IMG/VR virus record: IMGVR_UViG_3300020180_000028
Location: 1-46,345 of that record
Strand: one strand, 5' to 3'
Origin: a virus
DNA length: 46,345 bases
In this document: one piece after another, positions 29,429 to 46,345 of the stretch
Layout of the letters: the number at the start of each line of letters is the position of its first letter
Numbering within the stretch: the first letter of the stretch is position 1
Program-made: the position numbers and the translations under genes
Notes under the pieces: generated by a model
What the model was told of the DNA's origin: nothing
The model's database searches: none
Seen by the model: the letters and a program-made list of their open reading frames with translations, nothing else

Positions 29429-30619
29429 CTAGCTTATTAAAACAGAACTTGAAAAGGGCCCGAGAGAAGTCGAAATAACGGGTCCGCCCAGGTTTCCAAT
29501 ACCGATAAACTTGGTCAACATGTTGACGGCAGGTAGTGGGGCGGGACCTATTAAAACCGTAGACCCCTTCAAAATCATCGATCCACCTGACACTAGCTGT
29601 ATTAGTCCGTCTGATTTAACATCTACCATGCTCTGCCCGATTATTTTAACCATGCTTTGAGCCTGCATTTCTATCATTGATTTAGAGTTTAGCTTAAACC
29701 CCTGTGTTTCAACCCCCATCTTACCTTCGTTTTTGATGTCGAATGTTTGTTTCACCATGTATAAAGCTTTGCCTGTAGCCTCTACTAACCAGTCTTTAGT
29801 TATCTTAGCGTTCATTGACTCTTTAGCTGTTATGTTGAAAGACTTGTCTGTTTTGAAGGAGGTGCTATCTCTAGACTGAACATCCACTGTTTTCTTTGTC
29901 TTATCAAGCCTAATGCCTTCATATTGAATACCCTCTGGAGCGGCTTCGGCGGCTTTAATCTTTTCAGATGCTAGATTAGACTGAGACAGCTCTCCTCTTA
30001 AAATATCATTATGTACTTGAAAAGATCCATCCTTTTCTATTTTAATTTGAGTTCCACCAGCGGTTAGATTAGACGGCTTTCCTGTATCGTCTGTAGCCGA
30101 ACGATAGGTTAGCGTGAATGCCCCGTCGTTGTTTACTTCAAATCTAAGACCGTTAAACTCTCCCTCTGCGTGATTTTTTTCAAGATCCGTTAGGGTTACA
30201 CGCTTATTGGGGTTTGGCATAAACCCAACAATTACAGCCTTTTCGGAGTTTTTATCTAAACATAGGATTAGTGCAAGAGTGCCATTTTGGTCTTTAAAAG
30301 ATAGCTGGGTCTTTACTTTTTTGGGATTTTTTGTTGGTCTAAGCTTAAACTGAAAATAATCGGCTACTCCGCCAAATGAGTCAAAGGCTAGGCAACTCTT
30401 ATAAATACTCGAATTGATACCATTTGTTTCGGCCTGTTCAATACACATTACGTCGTATTCAGGGCCTAGTTTTGATACATTCCTTTCGTCTGTAGTTTCA
30501 ATGGTTTCTAATACAACCCCCAACTTAAGACCTGTATTGTCAAATATTTTCCTACCCTGGAGAGTACTGCTCTCATCTCTAGATGAAAGTAGTGAGGAGT
30601 TTAAAGTTGGTCTATACAT
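29429..30619 (-). CDS. Baseplate central spike protein (gp5/VgrG-like)
   Basis: 396 aa. The N-terminal part to about residue 130 is beta-rich and OB-fold-like (GLKLGVVLETIET, TLALILCLDKNSEKAVIVGF). The C-terminal half has short periodic beta strands (KIIGQSMVDVKSDGLIQLVS, GGSMILKGSTVLIGPAP), typical of the triple-stranded beta-helix of gp5/gpV-type membrane-puncturing spikes. No lysozyme domain is present. It lies directly downstream of the gp27-like hub, the expected partner. ATG 30619; weak RBS. Confidence 0.7.
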   Translation of the reverse strand: MYRPTLNSSLLSSRDESSTLQGRKIFDNTGLKLGVVLETIETTDERNVSKLGPEYDVMCIEQAETNGINSSIYKSCLAFDSFGGVADYFQFKLRPTKNPKKVKTQLSFKDQNGTLALILCLDKNSEKAVIVGFMPNPNKRVTLTDLEKNHAEGEFNGLRFEVNNDGAFTLTYRSATDDTGKPSNLTAGGTQIKIEKDGSFQVHNDILRGELSQSNLASEKIKAAEAAPEGIQYEGIRLDKTKKTVDVQSRDSTSFKTDKSFNITAKESMNAKITKDWLVEATGKALYMVKQTFDIKNEGKMGVETQGFKLNSKSMIEMQAQSMVKIIGQSMVDVKSDGLIQLVSGGSMILKGSTVLIGPAPLPAVNMLTKFIGIGNLGGPVISTSLGPFSSSVLIS

Positions 30620-30684
30620 TTTTTACTTTCTGTTTTTGGAGTTAGTTCGTCGTAGGTTTCTATGTAAATCTCTATTTTTTTCAT
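30601..30684 (-). CDS. Possible 27-aa peptide between hub and spike genes
   Basis: MKKIEIYIETYDELTPKTES and a short end. It starts 5 nt after the hub stop and overlaps the spike start by 19 nt. No function suggested; it may serve only to couple translation. Confidence 0.35.
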   Translation of the reverse strand: MKKIEIYIETYDELTPKTESKKCIDQL

Positions 30685-30689
30685 TTTTC

Positions 30690-32510: not shown

Positions 32511-32511
32511 C

Positions 32512-34857: not shown

Positions 34858-34974
34858 TTTGTTACCTAGGATCGATATTTACCAGTTAGCCTAACCCACT
34901 GAAATTAAAGGTAAATGGTTGATTTTTAAGGAGTTGATAGGCAGGAATAGCTTAAAGATTGTCATTTTAAACGG

Positions 34975-35154
34975 TTAAGGGTTGATTCTTTCCTCTAATT
35001 CACAATGATACTGTTGATATATATTACCATCAATCAGTTTGTGGTCTATTAAAGTGCAGTTATCTCCTGAAAAATCAACATAATCGTGTGTACACGATGC
35101 GATAATCAAGAGAAACAGTGCAATTACAAGTAGATAGGGAATTTGCTTAATCAT
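34975..35154 (-). CDS. Small lipoprotein
   Basis: 59 aa from ATG 35154 (GGAGG 6 nt upstream). MIKQIPYLLVIALFLLIIAS then Cys: a lipobox IASC. The mature ~38 aa has two further Cys (GDNCTL and YHCEL), probably disulfide-bonded. A short phage lipoprotein at the envelope; o-spanin or exclusion protein are possibilities, with no direct evidence. Confidence 0.65.
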   Translation of the reverse strand: MIKQIPYLLVIALFLLIIASCTHDYVDFSGDNCTLIDHKLIDGNIYQQYHCELEERINP

Positions 35155-35205
35155 TACCGCCTCCATAGAGTGAATTGATATTATAAACAATAAAATCGTA
35201 AAAAA

Positions 35206-35481
35206 TCACATACACCCACTATAGTAATCAAACCACATATCGCTCCAGTACTCATCCTGACTTTCTTGGCAAGTAGGACATAAAACACACCAGTTACGGC
35301 TTTCTTCTTCGTATTTAGTGTTCTGCAGTCTATTGGTGGCATTGTTGTTTCCGCAACAAATACACTCCAAGGAACCATCTTCAATTGCATCCAAAACCCT
35401 ACTTGAATACCCCTTGCAAACCACGTTGGTGCACCTGCCGTCTTCCTTTATTTTTTTAGAACAAATAGGGCAACTTCTCAT
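35206..35481 (-). CDS. Zinc-ribbon protein
   Basis: 91 aa with three Cys clusters: CPICSKKIKEDGRCTNVVC (4-22), CICCG and CVLCPTC. The last is HNH-like in layout (CxxCG...N.L....CxxCh), but the catalytic His/Asn are not in place. ATG 35481 is preceded by GAGGGAAGAGG. It may bind DNA or proteins through zinc. Confidence 0.65.
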   Translation of the reverse strand: MRSCPICSKKIKEDGRCTNVVCKGYSSRVLDAIEDGSLECICCGNNNATNRLQNTKYEEESRNWCVLCPTCQESQDEYWSDMWFDYYSGCM

Positions 35482-35557
35482 ACCTCTTCCCTCTATATGG
35501 TTTATTTCCTAAACCAAAACCACCCATTAGGTGTTTATTGCATTCATGGCAATTCAT
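35456..35557 (-). CDS. Possible 33-aa CxxC peptide
   Basis: MNCHECNKHLMGGFGLGNKP then a basic tail. It starts in an ATGA overlap with the cupredoxin stop and overlaps the zinc-ribbon start by 26 nt. Half a zinc site (CHEC plus His9). Confidence 0.4.
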   Translation of the reverse strand: MNCHECNKHLMGGFGLGNKPYRGKRYEKLPYLF

Positions 35558-35832
35558 TGTTTAACTTTAACCTCACCCTTCATCATAGCCTTGTGAGGCT
35601 GACAGTAGTATTTAAACCCCTTGTCTACCTTTACCGTAAAAACCTGATCTTTCTTTAACATCTTTGATTCAATCTTGCCGTCTTCTGACACTACATTGTG
35701 AAGCATCGAGTCTTTATTGATGAATGTTATTGTTTCCCCCTTAGAAACCGTAATAGTAGAGGGGTTAAACTTCATGTTCTTGATTTCAACAACTTGCGAG
35801 TTTAACATAATGTAAAGCAGTAGACTAGACAT
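35554..35832 (-). CDS. Cupredoxin (plastocyanin/amicyanin-like blue copper protein)
   Basis: 92 aa from ATG 35832 (AAGGAAG upstream). The N-terminal MSSLLLYIMLNSQ is a short, weak export-signal-like segment. The fold signature is VEIKNMKFNPSTITVSKGET (about 15-34) and ITFINKDSMLHNV. Predicted type 1 copper ligands are His45, Cys77, His80 and Met83 (CQPHKAM), the C-x2-H-x2-M spacing of amicyanin-type cupredoxins. It would carry electrons or bind copper, normally in the periplasm. Neighbours: DenV upstream (8-nt overlap) and a CxxC peptide downstream. Phage cupredoxins are best known from cyanophages (plastocyanin); this context lacks photosynthesis genes. Confidence 0.8.
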   Translation of the reverse strand: MSSLLLYIMLNSQVVEIKNMKFNPSTITVSKGETITFINKDSMLHNVVSEDGKIESKMLKKDQVFTVKVDKGFKYYCQPHKAMMKGEVKVKQ

Positions 35833-36223
35833 TTTTAACTTCCTTTTTACTAGCGTCAATTCTCTCGTTAATCCTGATATTGTTTATATTAACAGCTTCT
35901 TCAGTGGGAACATAGTCCCTAAAAAATCCATCTGGACAACGCTCGAAAATAGTAATATCTGTAAATTTTGGGCTATACCCACGATAGATCATCTCCTTAA
36001 CTAGCATTTCAAATCTTTTCTGTAAAAACAACATTTTATTATAGAAGAACTTAACATGCCCCTTGCCTAGGGTGTAATTTTGCGGAATTTCATCAACACT
36101 AAATGGTTTTTTGCGCTTTAGAGATTTTTCAAGATTGCCAGGTAAGCGTGTGATTTCACGATACTCGGCAACAAGATGTTGTCTAATCAATTTACTTGGA
36201 TCTATTACATTTATTCTGGTCAC
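35825..36223 (-). CDS. denV: Pyrimidine-dimer DNA glycosylase (T4 endonuclease V-like)
   Basis: 132 aa. Excises UV pyrimidine dimers by glycosylase plus AP-lyase action using the N-terminal Thr amine. The start is GTG 36223, with AGGAGG upstream. It gives MTRINVIDPSK, placing Thr2, Arg3, Arg22, Glu23 and Arg26 at the T4 enzyme's catalytic and binding positions (LVAEYREITR; E23 catalytic). LGKGHVKFFYNK (T4: LGAGHVTFFYDK) and MIYRGYSPKF also match. The longer frame upstream would bury Thr2 and is rejected. It overlaps a 27-aa membrane ORF by GTGA and the cupredoxin by 8 nt. Confidence 0.93.
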   Translation of the reverse strand: MTRINVIDPSKLIRQHLVAEYREITRLPGNLEKSLKRKKPFSVDEIPQNYTLGKGHVKFFYNKMLFLQKRFEMLVKEMIYRGYSPKFTDITIFERCPDGFFRDYVPTEEAVNINNIRINERIDASKKEVKNV

Positions 36224-36303
36224 TTTAACCTCCTGAAACACTCATAAGCATACCATGCCCAGACGATAATAGCAAGCAAAAGCAGTTTGATTTCATGGCT
36301 CAT
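36220..36303 (-). CDS. 27-aa membrane peptide coupled to denV
   Basis: MSHEIKLLLLAIIVWAWYAY then ECFRRLK. One hydrophobic segment; AGGT 6 nt before ATG 36303; TGA overlaps the denV GTG (GTGA), which suggests it is translated and couples denV. Confidence 0.45.
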   Translation of the reverse strand: MSHEIKLLLLAIIVWAWYAYECFRRLK

Positions 36304-36339
36304 TTTGTACCTATTAGATCTACTCTAAAGACCACATAG

Positions 36340-36657
36340 CTATTCAAAGAAGTCTTCATTAACTTGCATAAGGAACTCCGAATGATCTTCCTCATGCTTT
36401 TCCTTACAGTGTGAACATCTCTTATCGTGATCCACCCCATACGGGTCTGAATTTTTATTACATCCGTCACACCCAAATACATCGCACAATTTTTCTGGAA
36501 CTGGAGGAATGGTACTCTTCTCTGGCTCTGGCTCTGGCTCTTGCTTAATTATTACGTCAAAACTTTTACAGCACGTACCGCAAAAAACCCTACCGTTCTT
36601 TTTAGCCCAAGCAATGTCTATTTCTATTAGTGAATTGCACAGCGGACACATGTTCAT
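36340..36657 (-). CDS. Multi-CxxC zinc-ribbon protein
   Basis: 105 aa. N-terminal zinc ribbon (MCPLCNSLI ... FCGTCCKSF), a KQEPEPEPEKS linker, then Cys/His clusters (CDVFGCDGC and RCSHCKEKH). ATG 36657, GGGGG upstream. Probably a small protein- or nucleic-acid-binding factor. Confidence 0.65.
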   Translation of the reverse strand: MNMCPLCNSLIEIDIAWAKKNGRVFCGTCCKSFDVIIKQEPEPEPEKSTIPPVPEKLCDVFGCDGCNKNSDPYGVDHDKRCSHCKEKHEEDHSEFLMQVNEDFFE

Positions 36658-36695
36658 TTATAACCCCCTAAGCTCTACATAGAAACCTACTAGTC

Positions 36696-36863
36696 CTAAA
36701 TGGATAGGATTCCCCAATAAAAACCACTCAAGATAGAAACCGTAAAACAGATAAGCAAGATTCCTAGTGCCTTTTTTTTGCCTATCTTTTCTAGATTGTA
36801 TATGAAAATAAAACCACTCAATAGACCAGTGATAGCTGGGTGTAATATGGAAATGAGTTTCAC
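36696..36863 (-). CDS. Two-span small membrane protein
   Basis: 55 aa from GTG 36863 (GAGAGG upstream). Two hydrophobic helices (ISILHPAITGLLSGFIFIY and ALGILLICFTVSILSGFYW) joined by a basic turn (EKIGKKK). The topology suits a holin-like or membrane-anchoring protein; no name can be given. GTGA overlap with the preceding gene. Confidence 0.5.
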   Translation of the reverse strand: MKLISILHPAITGLLSGFIFIYNLEKIGKKKALGILLICFTVSILSGFYWGILSI

Positions 36864-37030
36864 TTTATACCTCTCCGATGCATCATCCTATATTGCCAGT
36901 CATTACAATCCCAGGCAAACCCGAGTATTCTAAACGCCCTCTTGTATTCCCCGTCAAAACATTCCCAGGTAAGAAAGGCCCAGTGTCTAATTGAGACACA
37001 CCTTTTTGGTGATATGTATTGTAGTTTCAC
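36860..37030 (-). CDS. 56-aa Trp/Arg-rich hypothetical protein
   Basis: GTG 37030 with GGGGG upstream: MKLQYISPKRCVSIRHWAFL, then EYKRAFRILGFAWDCNDW and a basic end. Soluble and basic, with no known domain. It ends in the GTGA overlap with the two-span membrane protein. Confidence 0.5.
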   Translation of the reverse strand: MKLQYISPKRCVSIRHWAFLTWECFDGEYKRAFRILGFAWDCNDWQYRMMHRRGIK

Positions 37031-37042
37031 TGTTAACCCCCG

Positions 37043-37369
37043 TTAAAAAGAATAATCATGATAAGCGTTACGAATTCCAAAAGCTACTTTTGTGTATTCA
37101 CCAGATTTGCGCCACTGACCGTCTTTTCTGATAGAAACTCGAATTAGCTGAGCATCTGTATTTGCGCTATATTCGTAATCCTGACTCTCACTCATACCGT
37201 TATTATCTATACGTTTCGCTGAATCCGGCTGAATCCACGCTGTCCGCCCTGATTTAGACACTCTAACTACGGTTGCAGCGTGTCGATCCGTATATAGATA
37301 GACTGTGGCACCATCACCTACTTCCGGGGCTTTACATTTAATCTTAAGGATGTTTGCAATTTGTGTCAT
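37043..37369 (-). CDS. Conserved phage hypothetical protein
   Basis: 108 aa. VGDGATVYLYTDRHAATVVR and DNNGMSESQDYEY match a recurring phage/plasmid family of unknown function (pattern VGDGAT....DRHAgTV and NNGMSESQ.Y). SH3-like beta barrel likely. AAGGAG before ATG 37369, and a promoter at 37387-37415. First gene of its own cassette. Confidence 0.7.
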   Translation of the reverse strand: MTQIANILKIKCKAPEVGDGATVYLYTDRHAATVVRVSKSGRTAWIQPDSAKRIDNNGMSESQDYEYSANTDAQLIRVSIRKDGQWRKSGEYTKVAFGIRNAYHDYSF

Positions 37370-37386
37370 AAAATCTCCTTAAACAC

Positions 37387-37415
37387 ACAATACCACATGG
37401 GAGGGTTTGTTGCAA
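37387..37415 (-). promoter_or_regulatory. sigma70-like promoter
   Basis: Minus strand TTGCAA (37410-37415), 17 bp, TGG+TATTGT (-10 at 37387-37392). It reads into the 37043-37369 gene. Confidence 0.6.
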
Positions 37416-37488
37416 GCTTATTGTTTATCCCCAGAAAATCCCGTTCAGGCCCTTGGCAACTAGAAACTCATTGAATGTATGATCCATA

Positions 37489-38124
37489 CTACACCTTGCT
37501 AGTAGCACTCAGTACCCTGGCTATCCATTTTTCAATTTGTGAAATAGATACCGGTGCATAGTTGTTTGCAGCCACACCAACGTCATATTGTCGTCCAAGT
37601 TCGCGTTTTTTATCGTTGTGGGGCCCGGAGTGTATGTGACCAGATAAATGGAATTGTCCTTCGTCCGCCACGCTATATTTACGATTCTTAATGTCACCGT
37701 GCCAGCATTCGTCACCTGTTGAATTTCTCATACCGTTGGTGTCTTCTCTAAACACGCCGGCCAATGGGCAATGACTCATTGTAATTCTATTCTCACCTAA
37801 ATAGATAGTTGCGCCGTGCATTACAACATCAAACCCCATTTCGTAGCAACTATTGTAGCCACGGTCATGGTTCCCCACTACTAGAACTTTAACCCCGTTC
37901 ATTTGTGTAACCACTTCTCTAGTTAAACTACTACTACCTAGTCCAATATCACCGAGAAAGTAGCAAATACCTCTTTCAGGTACGGTTGCGTTGTAGTTAC
38001 TAATAAGAACATCGTGCATGTGTTCCAGGTCCCTAAAGGGCCGCCTATCAAACTCCAGTACGCTTTTATGCCCGATATGTAGGTCTGAGGTGAAAAATGT
38101 AGGTTTGCGTACTTCAGAAGTCAT
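37489..38124 (-). CDS. Metallophosphoesterase (calcineurin-like)
   Basis: 211 aa from ATG 38124 (AGGG 8 nt upstream). All metal-site blocks are present: SDLHIGH (D14, H16), GDIG (D59), GNHD (84-87), ITMSHCP and GHIHSG near the C-terminus. Members cleave phosphoesters (nucleotides, polyphosphates, RNA ends). The compact layout resembles phage and YfcE-type phosphodiesterases; the substrate is undefined. It overlaps the upstream gene by 11 nt. Confidence 0.85.
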   Translation of the reverse strand: MTSEVRKPTFFTSDLHIGHKSVLEFDRRPFRDLEHMHDVLISNYNATVPERGICYFLGDIGLGSSSLTREVVTQMNGVKVLVVGNHDRGYNSCYEMGFDVVMHGATIYLGENRITMSHCPLAGVFREDTNGMRNSTGDECWHGDIKNRKYSVADEGQFHLSGHIHSGPHNDKKRELGRQYDVGVAANNYAPVSISQIEKWIARVLSATSKV

Positions 38125-38353
38125 GTTTCTCACCCTGATATTTTAGCCGTTCTAAACTAATACGCTCTCCTTCACCATTCTTCAAAATAAATCCACCATC
38201 GCGCATGTCAATACGAAGCTCAATATATTTACATTCAGAATTTTTAAACCACTGCCAACCATCAGGGTTATCCCCCGTAGCAGTTTGAATGAAATCAAAC
38301 ACACCCTGTAGATTAGTATTCCATACGTTGTCAGGTTTTAAATCTTTTTCCAT
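38114..38353 (-). CDS. Hypothetical protein
   Basis: 79 aa: helical start (VWNTNLQGVFDFIQTATGD), then beta strands (KYIELRIDMRDGGFILKNG). GGAGAG before ATG 38353. It follows the 64-aa gene with no gap. Confidence 0.6.
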   Translation of the reverse strand: MEKDLKPDNVWNTNLQGVFDFIQTATGDNPDGWQWFKNSECKYIELRIDMRDGGFILKNGEGERISLERLKYQGEKHDF

Positions 38354-38548
38354 TCAAAGCTCTCCGATGAATACGTTTTCGATGTAAAATAATGACGTGG
38401 CCGGACCTTCAAGCCAGCATCCGAAGTCCTCATCAAAATGGCAGAAGGCTGCGGTACCATTGGTTGAATGTTTAATGACGAACAAATAGTTGTCCTTGGG
38501 CACATACCAGAACCCTTCACGCGGGCGCAATGTTTGGTCATCTTTCAT
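38354..38548 (-). CDS. Hypothetical protein
   Basis: 64 aa, beta-rich and aromatic (REGFWYVPKDNYLFVIKHS, GCWLEGPATSLFYIENVF). Starts inside the end of the membrane-protein gene (11-nt overlap). No family recognised. Confidence 0.6.
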   Translation of the reverse strand: MKDDQTLRPREGFWYVPKDNYLFVIKHSTNGTAAFCHFDEDFGCWLEGPATSLFYIENVFIGEL

Positions 38549-38726
38549 TCACCCCCCTTTCTTGCCGCAACTCGGTCCCTCCAATCCCCCACCCAATTAC
38601 GACAGTTGCAATTATTGAACCCAGGGCGACACTAAGAATAATTGTTCCAGCCACTAAGTGGCGGGGTGTGGTGAAGATCATCGCCGCGATCGCAATAACT
38701 ACTTCGATGATAAGAATTGTAATCAT
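38538..38726 (-). CDS. Two-span small membrane protein
   Basis: 62 aa: helix 1 MITILIIEVVIAIAAMIF, helix 2 LVAGTIILSVALGSIIATVV, charged tail TELRQERGVNER. ATGA overlap with the Gly-rich gene upstream. Unknown role; holin-like by topology only. Confidence 0.55.
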   Translation of the reverse strand: MITILIIEVVIAIAAMIFTTPRHLVAGTIILSVALGSIIATVVIGWGIGGTELRQERGVNER

Positions 38727-38845
38727 GTGCCGTCACCGCTGCCATCGCCGCCCTCGCCGCTGTGGCCATAGCCGCTACCGCTGCCGTAGCCACGGCCGTC
38801 GCCGTGCCCGATCATGCTGTGAGCGTCCTCTAGTTCTTTAGCCAT
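38723..38845 (-). CDS. Gly/Asp/Ser-rich repeat protein, short paralogue
   Basis: 40 aa: MAKELEDAHSMIGHGDGRGY then GSGSGYGHSG-type repeats. AAGGAGAGCAA precedes the ATG. The start region and RBS copy those of the 87-aa gene upstream, so the pair arose by duplication. The GC-rich codons (GGC, GAC) contrast with the AT-rich genome. Unknown function; low-complexity GDG runs could bind Ca2+ (speculation). Confidence 0.6.
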   Translation of the reverse strand: MAKELEDAHSMIGHGDGRGYGSGSGYGHSGEGGDGSGDGT

Positions 38846-38869
38846 TTGCTCTCCTTGGTTTTGCCGTGG

Positions 38870-39133
38870 TCATGCGCCGTCGCCGTAGCCGTCTCCATCG
38901 CCACCATCGCCGTCTCCATAACCATCCCCATCCCCATCTCCATCTCCGTCGCCTTCGCCGTCGCCGCTGTAGCCAAAGCCATAGCCGTCTCCAAAGCCGT
39001 CTCCGTAGCCGCCAAAGCCGTCTCCGCTGCCGTCGCCGTAGCGGTCGCCGTCGTCTCCGTAGCCGCGAAAGCCACTGCCCTTGCCGTCGCCGCGGCCGAC
39101 AGCGCTGTAAGCGTTGTCTAGCTCTTTGGCCAC
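38870..39133 (-). CDS. Gly/Asp/Tyr-rich repeat protein
   Basis: 87 aa: MAKELDNAYSAVGRGDGKGS then repeats such as GYGDGFGDGYGFGYSGDGEG and an alternating GDGDGDG run. Nearly all codons are GGC, GAC or TAC-type. GGAGAGCAA before ATG 39133. Other frames across it give Arg/Trp- or Ala/Thr-rich shadows. Similar Gly-rich low-complexity ORFs occur in other phages; function unknown. Confidence 0.6.
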   Translation of the reverse strand: MAKELDNAYSAVGRGDGKGSGFRGYGDDGDRYGDGSGDGFGGYGDGFGDGYGFGYSGDGEGDGDGDGDGDGYGDGDGGDGDGYGDGA

Positions 39134-39444
39134 TTGCTCTCCTCACAATCCAGCACAAGAACCTCGGCCCCCCGGTGAAAACGGCATGTGCCTGCGGGTT
39201 CCAAAATTGTGTCGTTGAGGGGGCCGCTGCTCGCCAGTTCGCCCAGGCCTTTGGTCGTGCCCCACCGGCGGATCACTGAAGAATCGAGTAACAAGCACTC
39301 GTCTCCCTCGCGCGAGTATGTGCCCACGAGTACCCAGCCGCGCTGTAGCACTACAATTTTTCTACCCGTCGGTGACTGTGTGGGCGCAGGTGCGGATTTC
39401 TGCTGGAAGACCATCTCAATAATCGCTTTCTGAAACTCGTTCAT
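39118..39444 (-). CDS. DUF6948-like phage protein
   Basis: 108 aa. After a Pro/Ala-rich linker come IVVLQRGWVLVGTYSREGDE, VIRRWGTTKGLGELASSGP and ILEPAGTCRFH. The IRRWGTTKGLGELA signature is that of a small phage family of unknown function that I associate with DUF6948 (from memory). GGGGAG before ATG 39444. It lies in a GC-rich patch. Confidence 0.65.
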   Translation of the reverse strand: MNEFQKAIIEMVFQQKSAPAPTQSPTGRKIVVLQRGWVLVGTYSREGDECLLLDSSVIRRWGTTKGLGELASSGPLNDTILEPAGTCRFHRGAEVLVLDCEESKWPKS

Positions 39445-39462
39445 ATATCTCCCCTGTGGGCA

Positions 39463-39702
39463 TCATTGCCCGGTTGTTAACTTCGCAAGATAGGCCCTTG
39501 CTGCTACCGTGGGGCAAGTACCCCCAACGCCAATCCATCCGTGTGACTGGCAGCTTCCATGATGATCGAAGTGGCATTTTGTATCCTCGGCATCAACCAT
39601 CGGCCCCAGGTACTCAATGAGGCGCTTAATGGTGGCATCCCGTTCGGCAATCTTTTCGAGAAGTTTTTTAACACTTTTATCTTTCTGTTCAATCTCTCTC
39701 AC
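39463..39702 (-). CDS. Small protein with coiled coil and C/H motif
   Basis: 79 aa from GTG 39702 (GAGG upstream). N-terminal coiled coil (KSVKKLLEKIAERDATIKRL), then CHFDHHGSCQSHGW...CP. The CxxDHHGxCQxH motif recurs in small phage proteins and probably binds zinc. Part of the GC-rich patch. Confidence 0.6.
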   Translation of the reverse strand: MREIEQKDKSVKKLLEKIAERDATIKRLIEYLGPMVDAEDTKCHFDHHGSCQSHGWIGVGGTCPTVAARAYLAKLTTGQ

Positions 39703-39729
39703 GGTTTCACCTCGATTACGCGGTTTTAC

Positions 39730-40074
39730 TTATAGCTTCTCATAGTTTTTTTCAATGGCGTCTGCTATCTTATTGAAACTAGTAATAGCACGATCGTTTA
39801 AATTAATTAGACTAGTTTCACCATCAACCTTCGAACCGTAACAACTAACCATTCCAGCCCACTCCATTACACTGTTTGGAAGGTGTGCAGACATTTCATC
39901 AAACCTACTAACATCGCGACTGCTATCGTAGTCACAAACACCCTCAACCAGTGCTAGGTTGCACAGTACGCCCAAACAACAATTTGTCCCATCTTTCTCT
40001 AAGTTATTAAAACCTTGTTTAAACTCTCCAGACCTAAGAGCATCTACCCACATATCAGCAATTTGTTTTTTCAT
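39730..40074 (-). CDS. Conserved phage hypothetical protein (CCLGVLC family)
   Basis: 114 aa. WVDALRSGEFKQGFNNLEKD and NCCLGVLCNLA match a widespread phage protein family (pattern W..ALRSGeY.Q....L....CCLGVLCdLa). Later LNDRAITSFNKIADAIE is its usual C-terminal helix region. Function unknown. It overlaps the SET gene by 20 nt. Composition returns to AT-rich here. Confidence 0.75.
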   Translation of the reverse strand: MKKQIADMWVDALRSGEFKQGFNNLEKDGTNCCLGVLCNLALVEGVCDYDSSRDVSRFDEMSAHLPNSVMEWAGMVSCYGSKVDGETSLINLNDRAITSFNKIADAIEKNYEKL

Positions 40075-40468
40075 AAGCCTTCCTTATTCTATAGGTTAAA
40101 TCTTTAATAGCTACCTTAGGGTCATATCCGTAATCTATAAACAGTTGTGAGCCTTTCCTTATGTTACTATTTGCCCAGTACTCCATGCATTTGTCCTTGT
40201 AATTGCAAGAGTAGTCTATATTGCTTTTTTCTTTATGGTTAAACAAACTACCAAACCCCAATGCCAGGCACTCTTTATTACCTTTCCAGATATATACGTA
40301 TAGTTCTAAATACTTACCTGCGGTATCTTCTTGTTCTAAATACTTACCTGCGGTATCTTCTTGTTCTAATATAATAATAGGACTAGACTCAATAAGCTCT
40401 CCAGCTTTTATGTCTTTATTAGCGTAAAGACCGCGCCCATATTTTTTAGTAGTTCTAATTTCAATCAC
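40055..40468 (-). CDS. SET-domain protein (putative lysine methyltransferase)
   Basis: 137 aa from GTG 40468 (GAGGAG upstream). SET marks: RGLYANKDIKAGELIESSP, ALGFGSLFNHKEKSNIDY (NH core, SAM binding) and IRKGSQLFIDYGYD (terminal Tyr motif). A compact SET domain without post-SET Cys. A perfect in-frame 10-aa tandem duplication LEQEDTAGKY x2 lies in the variable insert after the first strand. Possible target: host or phage protein lysines (inference). Confidence 0.8.
   Translation of the reverse strand: MIEIRTTKKYGRGLYANKDIKAGELIESSPIIILEQEDTAGKYLEQEDTAGKYLELYVYIWKGNKECLALGFGSLFNHKEKSNIDYSCNYKDKCMEYWANSNIRKGSQLFIDYGYDPKVAIKDLTYRIRKAYEKTNC
40303..40362. repeat. Perfect 30-bp tandem duplication in the SET gene
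   Basis: Copies at 40303-40332 and 40333-40362, followed by a 7-base partial third copy (GTTCTAA). In frame, encoding a duplicated LEQEDTAGKY. Confidence 0.9.
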
Positions 40469-40487
40469 TTACCGCTCCTCACAATAA

Positions 40488-40566
40488 TGGTACGACATCA
40501 GAGAATCGAACCCTGCTTTCAAGTGTTTATAAGACACTTCCGGTAAACCACCAGCCGCCATGTCGC
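40488..40566 (-). tRNA. tRNA-Ile (anticodon UAU)
   Basis: 79-nt cloverleaf on the minus strand. The acceptor GCGACAT pairs with ATGTCGT, then A and an encoded CCA. 3-bp D stem CGG/CCG with GG in the loop; anticodon stem AGTGT/ACACT with loop CTTATAA, so U33, anticodon UAU and A37; T arm CAGGG-TTCGATT-CTCTG. It would read AUA (Ile), a codon bacteria usually read with a lysidine-modified CAU tRNA. It has its own promoter (40573-40601). Confidence 0.85.
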
Positions 40567-40572
40567 ATAATC

Positions 40573-40601
40573 AGTATACCACGGTTTTAGTATTGAGTCA
40601 A
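40573..40601 (-). promoter_or_regulatory. sigma70 promoter for the tRNA
   Basis: Minus strand TTGACT (40596-40601), 17-bp spacer ending TGG, TATACT (40573-40578). The predicted start is within a few bases of the tRNA 5' end. Confidence 0.8.
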
Positions 40602-40617
40602 TTAAATCTCATATATT

Positions 40618-40680
40618 TTAAACAACACAGTCAGCACAGGAAGCGTCACCAACCTCAACCGTTCTTATTCCACTTGGCAT
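40618..40680 (-). CDS. Possible 20-aa CxxC peptide
   Basis: MPSGIRTVEVGDASCADCVV, overlapping the ligase stop by TAATG with AGGA upstream. Very short; support is only coupling and RBS. Confidence 0.25.
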   Translation of the reverse strand: MPSGIRTVEVGDASCADCVV

Positions 40681-41648
40681 TAGCTATTCCTAGTTCTTTT
40701 GCTTTTAGCGGCGACCTTTAGATCTGAAATCATCTTTTCCATTGTGCAATCCTCTGCATTTAAATCGTCACGAAAGCGGAAAAATGTAGGGTGGCGAAGT
40801 CTTGGTGGGCTGTTTTTTGTTTTTAAAACTTCCTGCGCCCAGACATCCAGAACTTTTCCTTCGTATTCATAAAAGTTTTTGCTCATTTTAATTCTTAACT
40901 CGTCGTCAAAGCCGGAGGCAAATCCCACTTCCACAAGGGAGCCATTCTGATATACCGAAAGCGCTAGTGAGCCAATCATTCCCTTGTACTTGTTGGTCCC
41001 CTCTTTCCAACCAGACACTACTACTGAAACGTCATAGGACTTCTTCATTTTTGACCAAAATTTTCCGTAACCCATTCGAATGTCTTTTATGATTAACCCT
41101 TCGCCTCCTGCTGCTACCACTTTATTAAATTCTGCGGAGAATCCAGAAGTAATCCAAGGAATAGGCTTAACGAATTCGTTACCCATTTTTTTAACGACTG
41201 CTTCTAGTAATTTCCTGCGCTGCTCAAGTGGGAGATCTCTAACGTCTTTGCCCTGAAACATCATGATGTCGAAAACCATATAGGTTAGGTTTCCAAGTTC
41301 TTTCTGTTTACAAGACGCTTCTGCCGCGCCGGAGTTCATTATTGAATTAGTATTTAAAAAGTCGCTTGAAACTATTTCTCCATCAATCACAGTACCTTCT
41401 AGGCCCTCGTAATCAACCTTGGTGATGTGTGGGATATTGTCAGTCTTGTCTACCAGCAAACCGTCAGACACAGAGCCGCGCCTAGAAAGAAGTGTATGTC
41501 CTGACTTTCTTCTTTCGTATGGGCATGAGTCGAAATACATAACATATCGTGAGCCATCAATTTTTTCTTCAGCTATAAAATAAGGCTTATCAAAGTCTTC
41601 AGGAAGTTTTGCTGTACAACGGCTAGGGATACATAATTCTAATTTCAT
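40680..41648 (-). CDS. ATP-dependent DNA ligase
   Basis: 322 aa. Seals nicks via a lysyl-AMP intermediate. Motif I EEKIDGSR with Lys29, IIIa-like YMVFDIMMF (122-130), IV GGEGLIIK (180-187), V WSKMKK (197-202), followed by a C-terminal OB domain (VVSGWKEGTNKYKGMIGSL, DVWAQEVLKTKNSPPRLRHP). The size fits small phage ligases lacking an N-terminal DNA-binding domain. ATG 41648 with AAAGATGG upstream. Confidence 0.92.
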   Translation of the reverse strand: MKLELCIPSRCTAKLPEDFDKPYFIAEEKIDGSRYVMYFDSCPYERRKSGHTLLSRRGSVSDGLLVDKTDNIPHITKVDYEGLEGTVIDGEIVSSDFLNTNSIMNSGAAEASCKQKELGNLTYMVFDIMMFQGKDVRDLPLEQRRKLLEAVVKKMGNEFVKPIPWITSGFSAEFNKVVAAGGEGLIIKDIRMGYGKFWSKMKKSYDVSVVVSGWKEGTNKYKGMIGSLALSVYQNGSLVEVGFASGFDDELRIKMSKNFYEYEGKVLDVWAQEVLKTKNSPPRLRHPTFFRFRDDLNAEDCTMEKMISDLKVAAKSKRTRNS

Positions 41649-41739
41649 AGATCCATCTTTAGTTTCTTAAAATACACAGCGCGGCATTGGAGGCAGCCAT
41701 GGGTAGAAAGAAAGATGTACGTCTTTATTATTTTGCACG

Positions 41740-42330
41740 TTAAACCCCACCTATTACTTGGTTGAGAAATTTAAGATTCAAGGCTTGCTGTTTAAGCTTG
41801 GCAGCAATGTAAATAGCATCTTCAACATCACTGGAAGCATTGGCGGCAGCAAAGGCAGCTTGGGCAGCACCTTCGACGGCATAGTGGGCAGCGGCGTTGG
41901 TAAAAAAGACATAGTCGGCATTAGTGGCAATGAATGCAATGGGGGAATCATCGGCAGCATCGCGGGTATAGCAGAAGGCAACACACTTCGCTTTTACACG
42001 CTTTTTAACCTCTAATATTTGAGCATCTGTCAAGCTATCGAAATCATTAACAGTCTTAAGAAAATTGATGCAATTGCTAAGGCTCTTATCACCTTTATAT
42101 TTTTCTTCAAAAATATGTACTACGCTTTCAATGCATAGCATTGCCCATTTAACTAGTTGATTCTTGGTTAATACCCTTTTTGCAACCCAAACTTTATCGT
42201 CGTAGTTGACATTAGGTAAGTACAGGAAATCACTAAAGCTTCCGTCAAAATCAGCATTGTAATTCAGAAAATGTTCATATCTGTCAGCACAAGGCTCTAG
42301 GTTTTTCAGTACTTCTTTATTGATTTGCAT
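41740..42330 (-). CDS. Imm5-like paralogue, array member 7 (last transcribed)
   Basis: 196 aa: MQINKEVLKNLEPCADRYEH, WAMLCIESVVHIFEEKYKGD, then Ala-rich helices (AAHYAVEGAAQAAFAAANAS) and LNLKFLNQVIGG. The acidic PDD of other members is replaced by KGD, and Tyr repeats are fewer. It starts 11 nt after the stop of the upstream paralogue with no room for its own promoter, so it is cotranscribed with it. Confidence 0.75.
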   Translation of the reverse strand: MQINKEVLKNLEPCADRYEHFLNYNADFDGSFSDFLYLPNVNYDDKVWVAKRVLTKNQLVKWAMLCIESVVHIFEEKYKGDKSLSNCINFLKTVNDFDSLTDAQILEVKKRVKAKCVAFCYTRDAADDSPIAFIATNADYVFFTNAAAHYAVEGAAQAAFAAANASSDVEDAIYIAAKLKQQALNLKFLNQVIGGV

Positions 42331-42341
42331 AAATATCCTGG

Positions 42342-42971
42342 TTAAGCACTGATTGCTTGTTTCAAAAACTGAAGGTTAAGGGCTTGCTGTTTAAGACTGG
42401 CAGCGGCAGCATCTTCACCGTAAATGTCACAATAACCAAGGGTATCATCATAGGTAGCTTCGGCGGCGTAACACAAGACGTGGGAGGCAACATCGACAGC
42501 ATAGGCGGCAGCATAGGAATCACAGTAGGAGACGTGGACAAGGGCGGCAACATGGGAAACATTGAGAGCGTGGGCAGCGTGGCCAACAAAGATGTCAGGG
42601 TCGGTAGAAGCACGGGCAACAGCAAGGGCGAGATCTCTGTGCTTTTTAAGCTCTAATGCTTGATCAATTGTCAAGTTATTAAAATCCTTAACTGTTTTAA
42701 GGTAATTGATACAATTAATAACATGTTTATAATCCGGGTGTTGTTCTTCAAAAATATGCACTACGCTTTCAGCGCATAGCGTTGCCCAGCTAATGGCTTG
42801 GTTCTTGTTTAATACCCTTTTTGCAACCCAAATTTTATCGACATATTCAAGATTGGGTAATTCCATGAATTCGCTAAGACTTCCATCAAAATCAGCGTGA
42901 TGTTTTAGAAAAACCTTATACCTGTAATAACAGGGTTTAAGGCTTTTCAAGAATTCTTTATTAATTTGCAT
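42342..42971 (-). CDS. Imm5-like paralogue, array member 6
   Basis: 209 aa from ATG 42971 (GAGAGGGA upstream; the longer TTG frame is rejected). MQINKEFLKSLKPCYYRYKV, WATLCAESVVHIFEEQHPDY, then Ala/His/Tyr-rich helices with extra Cys (DVASHVLCYAAEATY) and LNLQFLKQAIS. Preceded by a strong promoter at 42990-43018. Confidence 0.78.
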   Translation of the reverse strand: MQINKEFLKSLKPCYYRYKVFLKHHADFDGSLSEFMELPNLEYVDKIWVAKRVLNKNQAISWATLCAESVVHIFEEQHPDYKHVINCINYLKTVKDFNNLTIDQALELKKHRDLALAVARASTDPDIFVGHAAHALNVSHVAALVHVSYCDSYAAAYAVDVASHVLCYAAEATYDDTLGYCDIYGEDAAAASLKQQALNLQFLKQAISA

Positions 42972-42989
42972 AAATCCCTCTCTCAAGCC

Positions 42990-43018
42990 ATTATCCCATA
43001 TAAGACTAAGCTTGTCAA
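42990..43018 (-). promoter_or_regulatory. Array promoter (member 6)
   Basis: TTGACA (43013-43018), 17 bp, GATAAT (42990-42995) on the minus strand; the spacer contains CTTATATG, which is shared with the other array promoters. Confidence 0.8.
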
Positions 43019-43026
43019 GCTAAATA

Positions 43027-43656
43027 CTAATTAATCACTTGCTTAAGAAACTGAAGATTTAAGGCTTCTTGATTTTCAAGAGCAGCAATTTTATTAGAAT
43101 CACAGACGGCATGGGTGGCATAGGAAGCATAGATGGCAGCTTGGGCAGCATGGGCGGCATAGATGACAGCTTGGAAAGAGGTGGAGGCAAAGGTGGCAGA
43201 ATGGGCGGCAGCATGGGCAGAGGTGGCGGCATAGTTGGCAGCATGGGCGGTGGCATTGGTAGAAAAGAGAGTAGCACTGGCGGCTGCATGGGCAGCATCG
43301 GTGGCAGCAGAGGTGGCTATTTTATGCTTCTTAATCTCTAATGGTTGACAATTGATCAAGCGGTCGAAATCATTAATAGATTTAAGGTAGTTGATGCAAT
43401 CACTAAGGCGCTTGTCATCTGGATATTTTGCTTCAAACATATGTACAACACTTTCAGCGCATAGCGTTGCCCATTTAACGGCTTTATTTTTGTTTAAAAT
43501 CTCCCTTGCAACCCAAATTTTATCGTCGTAGTTGACATTAGGTAAGTCAAGGAATTCACTAAAGCTTCCGTTAAACTCACCGTGATGTTTTATAAAATGC
43601 TCATACCTGTCGGTAAAAAGGTTAATACTTTTCAAGAATTCTTTGTTAATTTGCAT
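43027..43656 (-). CDS. Imm5-like paralogue, array member 5
   Basis: 209 aa. MQINKEFLKSINLFTDRYEH (the PC of most members is LF here), WATLCAESVVHMFEAKYPDD, then Ala/His-rich repeats (HAANYAATSAHAAAHSATFA) and LNLQFLKQVIN. AGGAG before ATG 43656; promoter at 43685-43713. Confidence 0.78.
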   Translation of the reverse strand: MQINKEFLKSINLFTDRYEHFIKHHGEFNGSFSEFLDLPNVNYDDKIWVAREILNKNKAVKWATLCAESVVHMFEAKYPDDKRLSDCINYLKSINDFDRLINCQPLEIKKHKIATSAATDAAHAAASATLFSTNATAHAANYAATSAHAAAHSATFASTSFQAVIYAAHAAQAAIYASYATHAVCDSNKIAALENQEALNLQFLKQVIN

Positions 43657-43684
43657 AATTCACTCCTGTTTTTACTCTTAACCC

Positions 43685-43713
43685 ATTGTTACATATAAGA
43701 CTAAACTTGTCAA
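43685..43713 (-). promoter_or_regulatory. Array promoter (member 5)
   Basis: TTGACA (43708-43713), 17 bp with CTTATATG, AACAAT (43685-43690) on the minus strand. Confidence 0.65.
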
Positions 43714-43723
43714 TATAATTCTA

Positions 43724-44383
43724 CTAATTAATCACTTGTTTTAGAAACTTAATATTTAAGGCTTCTTGACTTTCTTGAGCAGCAATTTTATTAGAATCAC
43801 TAGCATCGGTGGTGGCATAGAAGGCAGCTTGGACAGCATAGCACTCAGTATCGGCGACATCAACATCGATGTCATAGGCAGCAAGGGTGGCATAGGCGGC
43901 TTCACGGACAGCGGCACGGACAGCGGCACCGACAGCATCGGCGGCATTGGAGGCACCGGCAGCATAGGGGGCACGGGAACAATAGGCGGTAAGAGAGACA
44001 GCATAGGGGCCACCAGCGGCAACGAAACAAGCAGCTCGGGAGGCTTCTTCATGTCTCTTAATCTCTGATGCTTGATCATTTGTCAAATTATCAAAATCCT
44101 TAACTGTTTTAAGGTAGCTAATGCAATCACTAAGACTCTGGTTATCAGGGTATTCTTTCTCAAAAATATGAACAACGCTTTCAGCGCATAGCGTTGCCCA
44201 CTTAACAGCTTGATTCTTGGTTAAAACTCTCCTTGCAATCCAGATTTTATCGACATATTCAAGATTGGGTAGGTCCAGGAAATCATTAAGACTTCCGCTA
44301 AACTCACCGTGATGTTCTAGGAAATGCTTATACCTGTTGTCGCAAGGGTTTAGGCTTTTCAATACGTCTTTGTTGATCTTCAT
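43724..44383 (-). CDS. Imm5-like paralogue, array member 4
   Basis: 219 aa from ATG 44383 (MKINKDVLKSLNPCDNRYKH), with GAGGG 7 nt upstream. An upstream ATG at 44419 lies inside the promoter spacer and is rejected. WATLCAESVVHIFEKEYPDN, then mixed Ala-rich repeats with several Arg and Cys (YCSRAPYAAGASNAADAVGA) and LNIKFLKQVIN. Confidence 0.78.
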   Translation of the reverse strand: MKINKDVLKSLNPCDNRYKHFLEHHGEFSGSLNDFLDLPNLEYVDKIWIARRVLTKNQAVKWATLCAESVVHIFEKEYPDNQSLSDCISYLKTVKDFDNLTNDQASEIKRHEEASRAACFVAAGGPYAVSLTAYCSRAPYAAGASNAADAVGAAVRAAVREAAYATLAAYDIDVDVADTECYAVQAAFYATTDASDSNKIAAQESQEALNIKFLKQVIN

Positions 44384-44395
44384 CATCTTTCCCTC

Positions 44396-44424
44396 ATTAT
44401 CACATATAATACCAGACATGTCAA
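44396..44424 (-). promoter_or_regulatory. Array promoter (member 4)
   Basis: TTGACA (44419-44424), 17 bp, GATAAT (44396-44401) on the minus strand. The spacer also contains TGGTATTATA, the other recurrent promoter motif of this phage. Confidence 0.8.
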
Positions 44425-44434
44425 TATAATTCCA

Positions 44435-45103
44435 CTAATTAATCACTTGTTTAAGAAACTTAATGTTAAGAGCTTGTTGGTTATGCTTGGAAGCATCATC
44501 AATAGAATCCCGATCATCATAGGTGGCAGCATAGGTGGCATAGTCGGCAGCATAGTCGGCAGCATAGTCGGCAGCATAGCTGGTAGCATAGGTGGCAACA
44601 TCGACAGCATAGCGTACTTCACGAGCGGCAGCAAAGACGGCATAGTAGGCAGCACGAGCAGCATTGGTGGCACCGATGGCGGCGATGGCGGCACAACGGA
44701 CAGCATAGGCAGCATCAGCGGCAGCTTCGATGGCAAAGCGGGCAGCATGGACAGCTCGGGCATCACTTATATGTCTCTTAATCTCTGATGCTTGATCAAC
44801 TGTCAAGTTATCGAAATCATTAACTGTTTTAAGGTAGTTGATGCAATCTCTAATGCATCTTTCATCCGGGTATTCTTTTTCAAAAACATGTACTACGCTT
44901 TCAGCACAAAGAATTGCCCAGTTAATGGCTTGATTCCTTGTTAAAACTCTCCCTGCAACCCAGATTTTATCATTGTAGTCAAGATTAGGTAAGTCAAGGA
45001 ATTCACTAAAACTACCGCTAAAATCAGCGTGACGCTCTAGAAAATGCCTATATCTGTCAACACAAGGCTCTAGGTTTTTCAGTACTTCTTTGTTAATTTG
45101 CAT
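44435..45103 (-). CDS. Imm5-like paralogue, array member 3
   Basis: 222 aa, the longest intact member. MQINKEVLKNLEPCVDRYRH, WAILCAESVVHVFEKEYPDE, then a long Ala/Tyr repeat tract that includes a perfect four-residue repeat (YAADYAADYAADYA; 12-bp DNA repeats at about 44543-44580) and LNIKFLKQVIN. AGGGA before the ATG; promoter at 45113-45141. Confidence 0.8.
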   Translation of the reverse strand: MQINKEVLKNLEPCVDRYRHFLERHADFSGSFSEFLDLPNLDYNDKIWVAGRVLTRNQAINWAILCAESVVHVFEKEYPDERCIRDCINYLKTVNDFDNLTVDQASEIKRHISDARAVHAARFAIEAAADAAYAVRCAAIAAIGATNAARAAYYAVFAAAREVRYAVDVATYATSYAADYAADYAADYATYAATYDDRDSIDDASKHNQQALNIKFLKQVIN

Positions 45104-45112
45104 CTTTCCCTC

Positions 45113-45141
45113 ATTGTTACATATAACCCTAAGCTTGTCAA
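45113..45141 (-). promoter_or_regulatory. Array promoter (member 3)
   Basis: TTGACA (45136-45141), 17 bp ending TTATATGT, AACAAT (45113-45118) on the minus strand. Confidence 0.65.
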
Positions 45142-45144
45142 CCT

Positions 45145-45723
45145 TTACAAACTACATGCCATTCTCAAAAACTGAATGTTAAGCTCTTGCTGGTTATTCC
45201 CGGCAGCGTCAGCATCTTCACCGGTATCAGCGGCTGCAAGGAGGGCAGCATAGACGGCATAGGAGGCAGAACGGGCGGCATAGTGGAAGGCATAATTGGC
45301 TGCATAGTTGACAGCATAGAGGGCATAATAGGCAGTATAGAGGGCATAGTGGACAGCACTGGCGACATAGTTGACTCCGCTAATATCTTCATGTTTTTTT
45401 ATTTCCCACTTTTCAGTATCAGTTAAGTTATTGAAATCCTTAATAGACTTAAGGAAATTGATACATTTGCTAAGACGTTTATTGCCTGGATAATTAGCCT
45501 CAAAAATATACATAACACTTTCGGCACAGAGAATAGCCCAGCTAACAGCTTGATTTTTAGTTAAAACCTTTTCTGCAATCAAAACTTTATCTTCATAACT
45601 AATAGTACCTAGGTCCAGGAATTCAATAAAATTACCATCAAAATCAGAGTGGTGTTCTAGAAAATGCTTATATCTATCATCACAAGGATTTAGGCTTTTC
45701 AGAAATTCTTTGTTAATTTGCAT
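45145..45723 (-). CDS. Imm5-like paralogue, array member 2
   Basis: 192 aa. MQINKEFLKSLNPCDDRYKH, WAILCAESVMYIFEANYPGN, then strongly Tyr/Ala-repetitive sequence (YALYTAYYALYAVNYAANYA) and a divergent C-terminal end (LNIQFLRMACSL). AAGGAC before ATG 45723; only 12 nt follow the upstream paralogue, so it is cotranscribed with member 1. Confidence 0.78.
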   Translation of the reverse strand: MQINKEFLKSLNPCDDRYKHFLEHHSDFDGNFIEFLDLGTISYEDKVLIAEKVLTKNQAVSWAILCAESVMYIFEANYPGNKRLSKCINFLKSIKDFNNLTDTEKWEIKKHEDISGVNYVASAVHYALYTAYYALYAVNYAANYAFHYAARSASYAVYAALLAAADTGEDADAAGNNQQELNIQFLRMACSL

Positions 45724-45735
45724 ATGAAGTCCTTT

Positions 45736-46345
45736 TCAAACACTAGTTACTTGTTTAAGAAACTGAAGGTTAAGAGCTTGTTGGCTATACTTGGCAGCAT
45801 AATTAATAGAATCCCGATCATCGTAGGTGGCAGCATAGTTGGTAGCAGAGGTGGCAGCATAGTTGGTAGCAGAGGTGGCAGCAGAGGTGGCATAGCGTGC
45901 TTCACGAGCGGCAGCACCGGCAGCATAGATGGCAGCTTGGACAGCATTGGCGGCACCAGAGGCGGCATAGGCGGCACAGCGGACAGCATAGGCAGCATTG
46001 GCGGCGGCATAGGTGGCATTGGTGGCATAGACGGTGGCATTGGCAGAAAAGAAAGCAGCATTGGCGGCCATTCCATGCTTCTTAATCTCTAATGCCTGGG
46101 CATTTGTCAAGTTATTAAAATCATTAATAGATTTAAGGTAGCTGATGCAATCACTAAGACGTTTATCGTCAGGACGCTTATCTTCAAAAATATGCACAAC
46201 ACTGTCAACACAAAGAACTGACCATTTAACTAGTTGATTCTTGGTTAAAACTATCACAGCAACCCAGATTTTATCTTCATAGTCAAGATTAGGTAAGTCC
46301 ATGAATTCGCTAAAGCTTCCGTTAAACTCACCGTGGTGTTTTAGA
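45736..46345 (-). CDS. Imm5-like paralogue, array member 1 (N-terminus beyond window)
   Basis: The frame is open to the right edge (upstream codons read LKHHGEFNGSFSEF before MDLPNLDYEDK), so about 20-25 N-terminal residues lie outside the window. WSVLCVDSVVHIFEDKRPDD, then Ala/Tyr/Asn repeats with an eight-residue repeat (TSATNYAA x2, 24-bp DNA repeats near 45825-45875) and LNLQFLKQVTS. Confidence 0.78.
   Translation of the reverse strand, partial: LKHHGEFNGSFSEFMDLPNLDYEDKIWVAVIVLTKNQLVKWSVLCVDSVVHIFEDKRPDDKRLSDCISYLKSINDFNNLTNAQALEIKKHGMAANAAFFSANATVYATNATYAAANAAYAVRCAAYAASGAANAVQAAIYAAGAAAREARYATSAATSATNYAATSATNYAATYDDRDSINYAAKYSQQALNLQFLKQVTSV

Follow-up and report, generated by a model that had tools for sequence, protein, structure and literature searches.

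A tandem array of Imm5-like paralogues in a large tailed phage and its possible role as a polyimmunity-like repertoire

Results

Imm5-like paralogues in a single virus record

We analysed a stretch of viral DNA of 46,345 bases (hereafter the window), which is the whole of a single IMG/VR virus record (IMGVR_UViG_3300020180_000028) and ends within a gene of the array described here. Seven consecutive minus-strand open reading frames (ORFs) at 41740–46344 align over their whole length, the other six being 46–54% identical to the first ORF of the array. They are named w1 to w7 (Table 1); w7 is without a start because the record ends. An earlier annotation made from the letters of the window (the first-pass annotation) had described seven same-strand paralogues, the seventh running off the end, and the whole-length alignment confirms this; an eighth paralogue, w8, lies outside the array on the opposite strand. 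The array copies share one orientation, with gaps of 12, 41, 51, 67, 55 and 11 bp from w7 to w1 and no toxin gene between them.

Hidden Markov model searches placed the eight copies in one family. PF21805 (Imm5_like) was the only Pfam family to match all of them, each at E ≤ 5e-4, with scores of 27.6, 33.3, 23.4, 23.3, 25.1, 22.4, 20.4 and 29.0 bits for w1 to w8; the curated cut-off of 25 bits was exceeded by four (w1, w2, w5 and w8), the remaining four scoring 20.4–23.4, and in w1, w4 and w6 the best matching stretch spans only about profile positions 7–45 of 129. A profile of 11 copies matched an alignment of two bacterial Imm5_like proteins in a profile–profile comparison (96%, E 4.1e-9, 37 columns). 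The Imm5-like resemblance that the first-pass annotation had taken from recognised patterns is supported by these matches; the opposite picture, no Imm5-like match and a single-copy, invariant locus in relatives, was looked for and is not the case.

Other searches added little. DUF6931 was a weak second Pfam match in four of the seven array copies. PF14423 (Imm5), with a cut-off of 25 bits, was absent at E 1 from all seven array copies, and its best score, 14.7 bits for a9 (a copy in the related record G001), and the 10.2 bits of w8 fall below that cut-off. NCBIfam gave chance-level matches only, and sequence searches of the PDB gave nothing convincing. A plasmid search returned four weak matches, two of them annotated 'putative immunity protein', with annotated neighbours that are not toxins by name.

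A constrained head, a divergent helical body and a conserved end

Each protein comprises a head of about 111 residues, an Ala/Tyr-rich body of 66–101 residues and an end of about 15. Among the 55 pairs formed by 11 distinct full-length copies from the window and its relatives, the heads (111 residues) are 58–74% identical (median 64%). Body identity is 23–61% with a median of 40%; since shuffled bodies already reach 31.5%, the resemblance is mostly one of composition. The copies share the end motif Q-x-(A/E)LN-x-(Q/K)F, in keeping with the conserved C-terminal end reported at first reading. For the heads, the ratio of non-synonymous to synonymous substitution rates (dN/dS), a check that the first-pass annotation had called for, has a median of 0.22 (78 pairs, one without a defined dS; median dS 0.9). 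This purifying selection indicates that the proteins are maintained and the heads constrained.

The Ala content of the bodies is 25–46% (13 tabulated, with w8 and its G001 counterpart a8 counted apart and one copy, b4, incomplete). Ala recurs at spacings of 3, 4, 7, 11 and 14 residues (also 10), and spacings of 2 and 5 are avoided. The pooled spacing score of 12 bodies was reached by none of 2000 residue shuffles and none of 2000 four-residue-block shuffles, figures that overstate independence since the bodies share ancestry and the lags were chosen post hoc. Because the block shuffles also fail, the spacing is not merely a product of the 12-bp unit that is gained and lost in the bodies (see below). 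Given that the spacing is helical, the bodies are probably packed helices. The fixed head of the first-pass annotation needs qualification: it is a conserved one, and the strain difference with the densest changes, that between w8 and a8, falls within it. The bodies, divergent as they are, retain their helical Ala spacing.

Promoter-like sites in the longer gaps

The pattern TTGACAWGYYTRGNNYTATATGNNAYAATR occurs four times in the window, each time just upstream of w2, w3, w4 or w5; it is present in the four longer gaps and absent from the two short ones (w7–w6 and w2–w1). Its absence from 100 shuffles is not an independent figure, because the pattern was derived from these same sites. Among viral contigs, the pattern was found in G001 and G002 only. 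These relatives hold eight sites (five in G001, three in G002, none in G003), of which seven are distinct and four equal the array sites of the window, and all eight lie 8–30 nt before the start of a copy. A looser extended −10 scan of G001, run without a shuffled control, gave ten sites; five precede copies, and one coincides with the place of the tRNA-Ile promoter-like site. TTGACT-17-TATAAT can be read by eye before w8. A general promoter scan of the array found 16 sites against 14.4 expected, a count not above chance; it is the specific pattern that carries the argument.

The sites before w4 and w5 lie so close to the start codons that RNA started from them would have almost no leader, and a longer w4 frame would take in part of the w4 site as coding sequence. 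The repeated arrangement suggests that promoter and gene were duplicated together as one cassette. A host-type promoter-like site accompanies each of several copies, so that early production through the host RNA polymerase is probable.

Table 1. Imm5-like copies and promoter-like sites in the window (G001, a related virus record)
Feature	Position	Strand	Remark
w1 (196 aa)	41740–42330	−	last of array; 11 bp after w2; no promoter-pattern site before it
w2 (209 aa)	42342–42971	−	top PF21805 score, 33.3 bits
w3 (209 aa)	43027–43656	−	Imm5-like paralogue
w4 (219 aa)	43724–44383	−	alternative start at 44419 in open frame
w5 (222 aa)	44435–45103	−	one 12-bp unit more than G001 copy
w6 (192 aa)	45145–45723	−	12 bp after w7; G001 copy differs by 8 substitutions and 1 indel column
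w7	45736–46344	−	5′ end outside record; one 12-bp unit fewer than G001 copy
w8 (206 aa)	7474–8094	+	eighth paralogue; solitary, opposite strand
Promoter-like site before w2	42989–43018	−	TTGACA, 17-nt spacer with TG before second hexamer, GATAAT
Promoter-like site before w3	43684–43713	−	pattern as in text
Promoter-like site before w4	44395–44424	−	pattern as in text; 11 nt from start codon
Promoter-like site before w5	45112–45141	−	pattern as in text; 8 nt from start codon

The carrier phage and its relatives

The carrier is a large tailed phage of the myovirus type. The window has baseplate and hub matches, including Baseplate_J, in a region of baseplate genes that also houses w8, and G001 encodes a terminase, a major head protein, a DNA polymerase, a ribonucleotide reductase and GroEL; among named phages the terminase is closest to that of Myxococcus phage Mx1 (30%). 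One flank of the array holds a DNA ligase gene, a tRNA-Ile gene and a SET-domain gene, and the other, seen in G001, an unnamed 168-aa ORF and a gene for a single-stranded DNA-binding-like protein.

Copies were found in three further records, G001 (124,069 bp), G002 (59,232 bp) and G003 (51,691 bp). G001 has 11 copies: seven in the orthologous array, the solitary a8 and three at its right end (a9–a11, array 2). The aligned pieces of G002 are 99.83–100% identical to G001, and its four copies include b1–b3, in which the last three copies of G001 recur, and the incomplete b4. The phage has at least 12 copies, because G002 runs past the end of G001 into b4. G003 gave four matches, from about three genes, one copy having a broken frame. 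Each of the four records has an end within a copy. This comparison of copy number covers four records of one phage group; tape-measure and terminase scans gave G001 to G003 as the only relatives.

Among named phages, neither a megablast search with window 30000–46345 nor a tblastn search with w5 at E 0.01 gave a match; the head consensus at E 10 hit eight records, of which Methanosarcina virus MetMV alone was clearly significant. A phage alignment, searched against genome contigs, matched 100 stretches and no relatives, and the MetMV protein as query found one contig only, 100% identical.

Several other features of these records were seen in passing. The SET-domain protein (PF00856, 50.8 bits; window 40055–40468) adjoins the tRNA-Ile(tat) gene. 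Window 1–983 matches G001 from 187 at 88%, and the match then jumps to 3593, a difference of more than 2 kb that reflects either inserted or rearranged sequence at a large ORF. At window 24290–24412 the match to G003 (13842) overlaps itself by about 120 bp inside a DNA methyltransferase gene, which suggests a short duplication or deletion. The window also encodes an MgtC-family protein (PF02308, 123 bits; 23139–23540) and has a low-complexity repeat stretch at 38830–39158 that is open in several frames on both strands.

Differences between the window and G001 concentrate in the copies

Over 45,667 aligned bp, the window and G001 differ by 37 substitutions, 31 of them within the 4,989 bp of the copies (11% of bases), and by 26 indel columns, 25 of them within copies. 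Those in the copies amount to few events: two 12-bp units (w5 and w7), clustered changes in w6 and a pair of dense tracts in w8; w1–w4, half of the eight copies, show no difference. The G001 counterpart of w6, a6, has an altered end following a 1-bp change. Counted as events, five or six clustered in copies stand against seven outside (Fisher p 0.006 or 0.0015). We set aside the substitution-level value (Fisher p 2e-24), which treats clustered changes as independent.

The 23 substitutions between w8 and a8 fall as 12 in 44 bp and 11 in 29 bp. From this clustering, the tracts look like the outcome of exchange among copies: 30 bp are common to a8 and w4, 32 bp to w8 and w2, and 24 bp to w8 and b3. 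In the sampled copies, exact matches that span a changed w8 site reach at most 32 bp for tract 1 and 15 bp for tract 2; none of these copies carries a whole w8 tract, so any donor would be putative.

Predicted structures of two members

AlphaFold models of w2 and w5 are nearly all-helical, with mean pLDDT (predicted local distance difference test) values of 69 and 61, lowest in the body. The w2 model aligned best to 7jtu chain B (Z 12.4, 3.3 Å, 155 residues, 10% identity), followed by two DUF416 structures (Z 11.5 and 11.4) and then a drop to 6.6 in the fourth row; for helical bundles the guideline of the structure aligner asks for a Z of about 13, against 12.4 here with DUF416 tied. The w5 model aligned best to a DUF416 structure, 2q9r (Z 6.4), and 7jtu was not among the matches listed from 76 aligned chains. 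The structure check suggested in the first-pass annotation thus gave a split answer, with 7jtu chain B and DUF416 tied for w2 and DUF416 best for w5. DUF416 is not known to be an immunity family. In BFVD, the best match of w2 was unnamed (E 5.4e-4) and the second was an Imm-5-like protein of an uncultured phage (E 2.8e-3); the best match of w5 had an E of 0.016. Entry 7JTU contains the deaminase toxin SsdA together with SsdAI, an immunity protein that is entirely helical (PMC7901873), and we infer from length and helices that chain B is SsdAI.

Neighbours of the phage and bacterial genes

A deaminase-like gene at G001:121283–121645 (L049:1283–1645) lies 0.57 kb from array 2. It scores 56.7 bits with dCMP_cyt_deam_1 against 29.5 bits with MafB19-deam and is more like a nucleotide enzyme; the proximity is worth a look because Imm5 is listed with the DYW deaminases (PMC3482391).

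We also surveyed bacterial PF21805 loci related to a Spirosoma plasmid copy, taking the best 80 of 329, from several phyla. These are 61–82% identical to the query. A second, weaker copy lies nearby in five of the 80, in four of these in the same direction. The 156 nearest ORFs of the 80 loci, searched in lots of 93 and 63 at E 1e-5, include glyoxalases, sigma factors, acetyltransferases and signalling proteins, among others.

Discussion

The role that the sequences make most likely is that of a repertoire of helical binders working like a polyimmunity locus. We propose, tentatively and at rather less than an even chance, that a large tailed phage carries a homogeneous, polyimmunity-like repertoire whose members block host toxins or defences. 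Each product would be a small, probably soluble helical protein with a conserved head holding the Imm5_like core, an Ala-rich helical body of variable length and a conserved terminal helix. The host RNA polymerase would make these products early from the promoter-like sites of the copies. Point changes, swaps of short tracts among paralogues and the addition or removal of 12-bp (4-residue) units would diversify the copies. Their products would bind a set of host proteins and block them, toxins or defence effectors being the most plausible ones, with a separate target for every copy. A bolder version of this proposal is improbable as a whole: a self-diversifying inhibitor library of a dozen or more cassettes with several promoters, in which heads are swapped and helices altered in 4-residue steps, and through which sister phages differ in the host toxins or defences that they block.

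A number of observations weigh against this proposal. We recognised no toxin gene inside the window array or next to it, although unnamed toxins could be missed, and PADLOC at E 0.1 matched none of the eight copies. No toxin family appeared among the best 25 of 79 and the best 25 of 135 neighbour families of the bacterial loci, a survey in which toxins without a Pfam family would be missed, and the 61–82% identity of these loci across phyla does not look like that of a fast-changing immunity gene, although picking the best 80 favours likeness. The 'immunity' label is thus weak; it stands on the Pfam name and a fold match of a predicted model, and linkage to toxin genes lends it nothing, since the families listed include no toxin neighbours. 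As to the fold, the SsdAI match of the w2 model was not repeated by the w5 model, DUF416 appears to share the fold equally with SsdAI in the w2 comparison, and both models are of medium confidence. The promoter pattern was chosen after these sites and their orthologues had been seen, and the Ala lags after the spacing had been seen in these sequences. Finally, the excess variation belongs to the window–G001 pair. The three pairs of array 2 (a9–a11 against b1–b3) have 0, 1 and 0 base differences, and a8 differs from the G003 copy c1 at 2 positions in 621, in a surrounding stretch that is 1.6% diverged; neither shows an excess, and a8 against c1 shows rather less variation. The idea of a diversifying repertoire put forward in the first-pass annotation is therefore supported in part, by the high copy number, the divergent bodies and the window–G001 differences, which lie mostly in copies, but array 2 and the singleton are not variable.

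The main rival to a repertoire of binders is gene dosage, which we consider doubtful but well worth weighing: the proteins would do one conserved job through head and end, the body would be a drifting, slipping helical spacer, and the array would be kept for dose. Purifying selection on the heads, body identity barely above the shuffled level and 12-bp units gained or lost in the bodies all fit this, as do single-copy relatives in other phages, whose bodies are likewise hardly alignable. Pure dosage would, however, favour similar copies, and the heads too diverge and take tract changes; the bodies keep their helical Ala spacing, though a spacer helix would need that too.

The strain variation, as distinct from the array itself, might instead be an assembly artefact of collapsed paralogues, which is unlikely in our judgement. 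That the four records each end within a copy is as expected where assemblers stall on repeats, and the variation lies almost wholly in repeated genes and is seen only in the window–G001 pair. But a chimera would need an unsampled copy, since no sampled copy carries the whole w8 tracts, and the a8 state at all 23 sites is found again in G003, a separate record.

Less likely again, the proteins could be host-takeover adaptors or have some other non-immunity role shared with DUF416-like helical proteins, 'immunity' being a mislabel. DUF416 is the best or nearly the best fold match of both models, and the neighbour families listed for the bacterial genes include no toxins; such a role by itself leaves the amplification and the local variability unexplained. 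Least likely of all, the set could guard the infected cell from toxins or exclusion functions of other phages or neighbouring bacteria, as would fit the description of polyimmunity loci as a pre-emptive stock (PMC3482391) and the deaminase-like gene near array 2, which nevertheless scores higher as an ordinary nucleotide enzyme.

Extended polyimmunity loci have been described as bacterial stocks of immunity genes, in the account we draw on (PMC3482391). If the proposal of a phage-borne repertoire is true, a phage version with promoter-bearing cassettes and localised variation would constitute a counter-defence repertoire differing from one sister phage to the next, and the Imm5_like family and proteins of the 9NA gp10 type would gain a testable role.

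Comparison with known systems

The phage proteins share with PF21805 the core WA-x-LCAESVV-x-x-FE-x-x-YPDD and an Ala-rich second half. They differ in the roughly 50 residues that precede the matched part, in their conserved end, and in being amplified and divergent, unlike the best 80 bacterial loci with their 61–82% identity. SsdAI (PDB 7JTU), the best structural match of the w2 model, is likewise all-helical; it is only 10% identical, no such toxin gene was recognised beside the window array, and the match was unrepeated for w5.

A family in Salmonella phage 9NA (gp10), Shewanella phage 1/4 and Vibrio phages (alignment A5) has a homologous head (hhalign 97.4%, E 9.6e-12, 75 columns) and, in most members, a variable, hardly alignable and mostly Ala-rich body with a short conserved end; K120 and F86 lack a clearly Ala-rich body. 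Unlike the array, these genes occupy a single place in each of the 16 phage records found at E 0.01, and none of seven members matches PF21805 at E 1. A scan with A5 found six contigs, with one such gene in each of the four read, in which further copies were not searched for. The record of Vibrio phage 2.044.O lists a portion of a related gene's Ala-rich body (L071:1824–1897) as CRISPR spacers, which is probably a false call. The protein AZF89938 of MetMV has a head match (E 1e-6) and an Ala-rich repeat body, with a PF21805 score of 16.8 bits, below the cut-off; it differs in occupying one place in its record at E 10 and in body repeats of another pattern. Judged by titles and abstract openings, no report of such a phage array appeared among the matches listed from the literature library searched.

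The array also resembles homogeneous polyimmunity loci, which have tandem same-strand paralogues of one immunity-type family with short gaps, no intervening toxin and strain-to-strain differences (PMC3482391). That source describes extended loci from four bacterial lineages, for which it infers a single polycistronic message, and its list of prominent homogeneous loci does not include Imm5. The array described here belongs to a phage, a promoter-like site precedes each of several copies, and the four such sites within the array suggest several transcription starts. With seven copies of one family, whose immunity nature is putative, separated by 11–67 bp, the array has the layout of a homogeneous polyimmunity locus.

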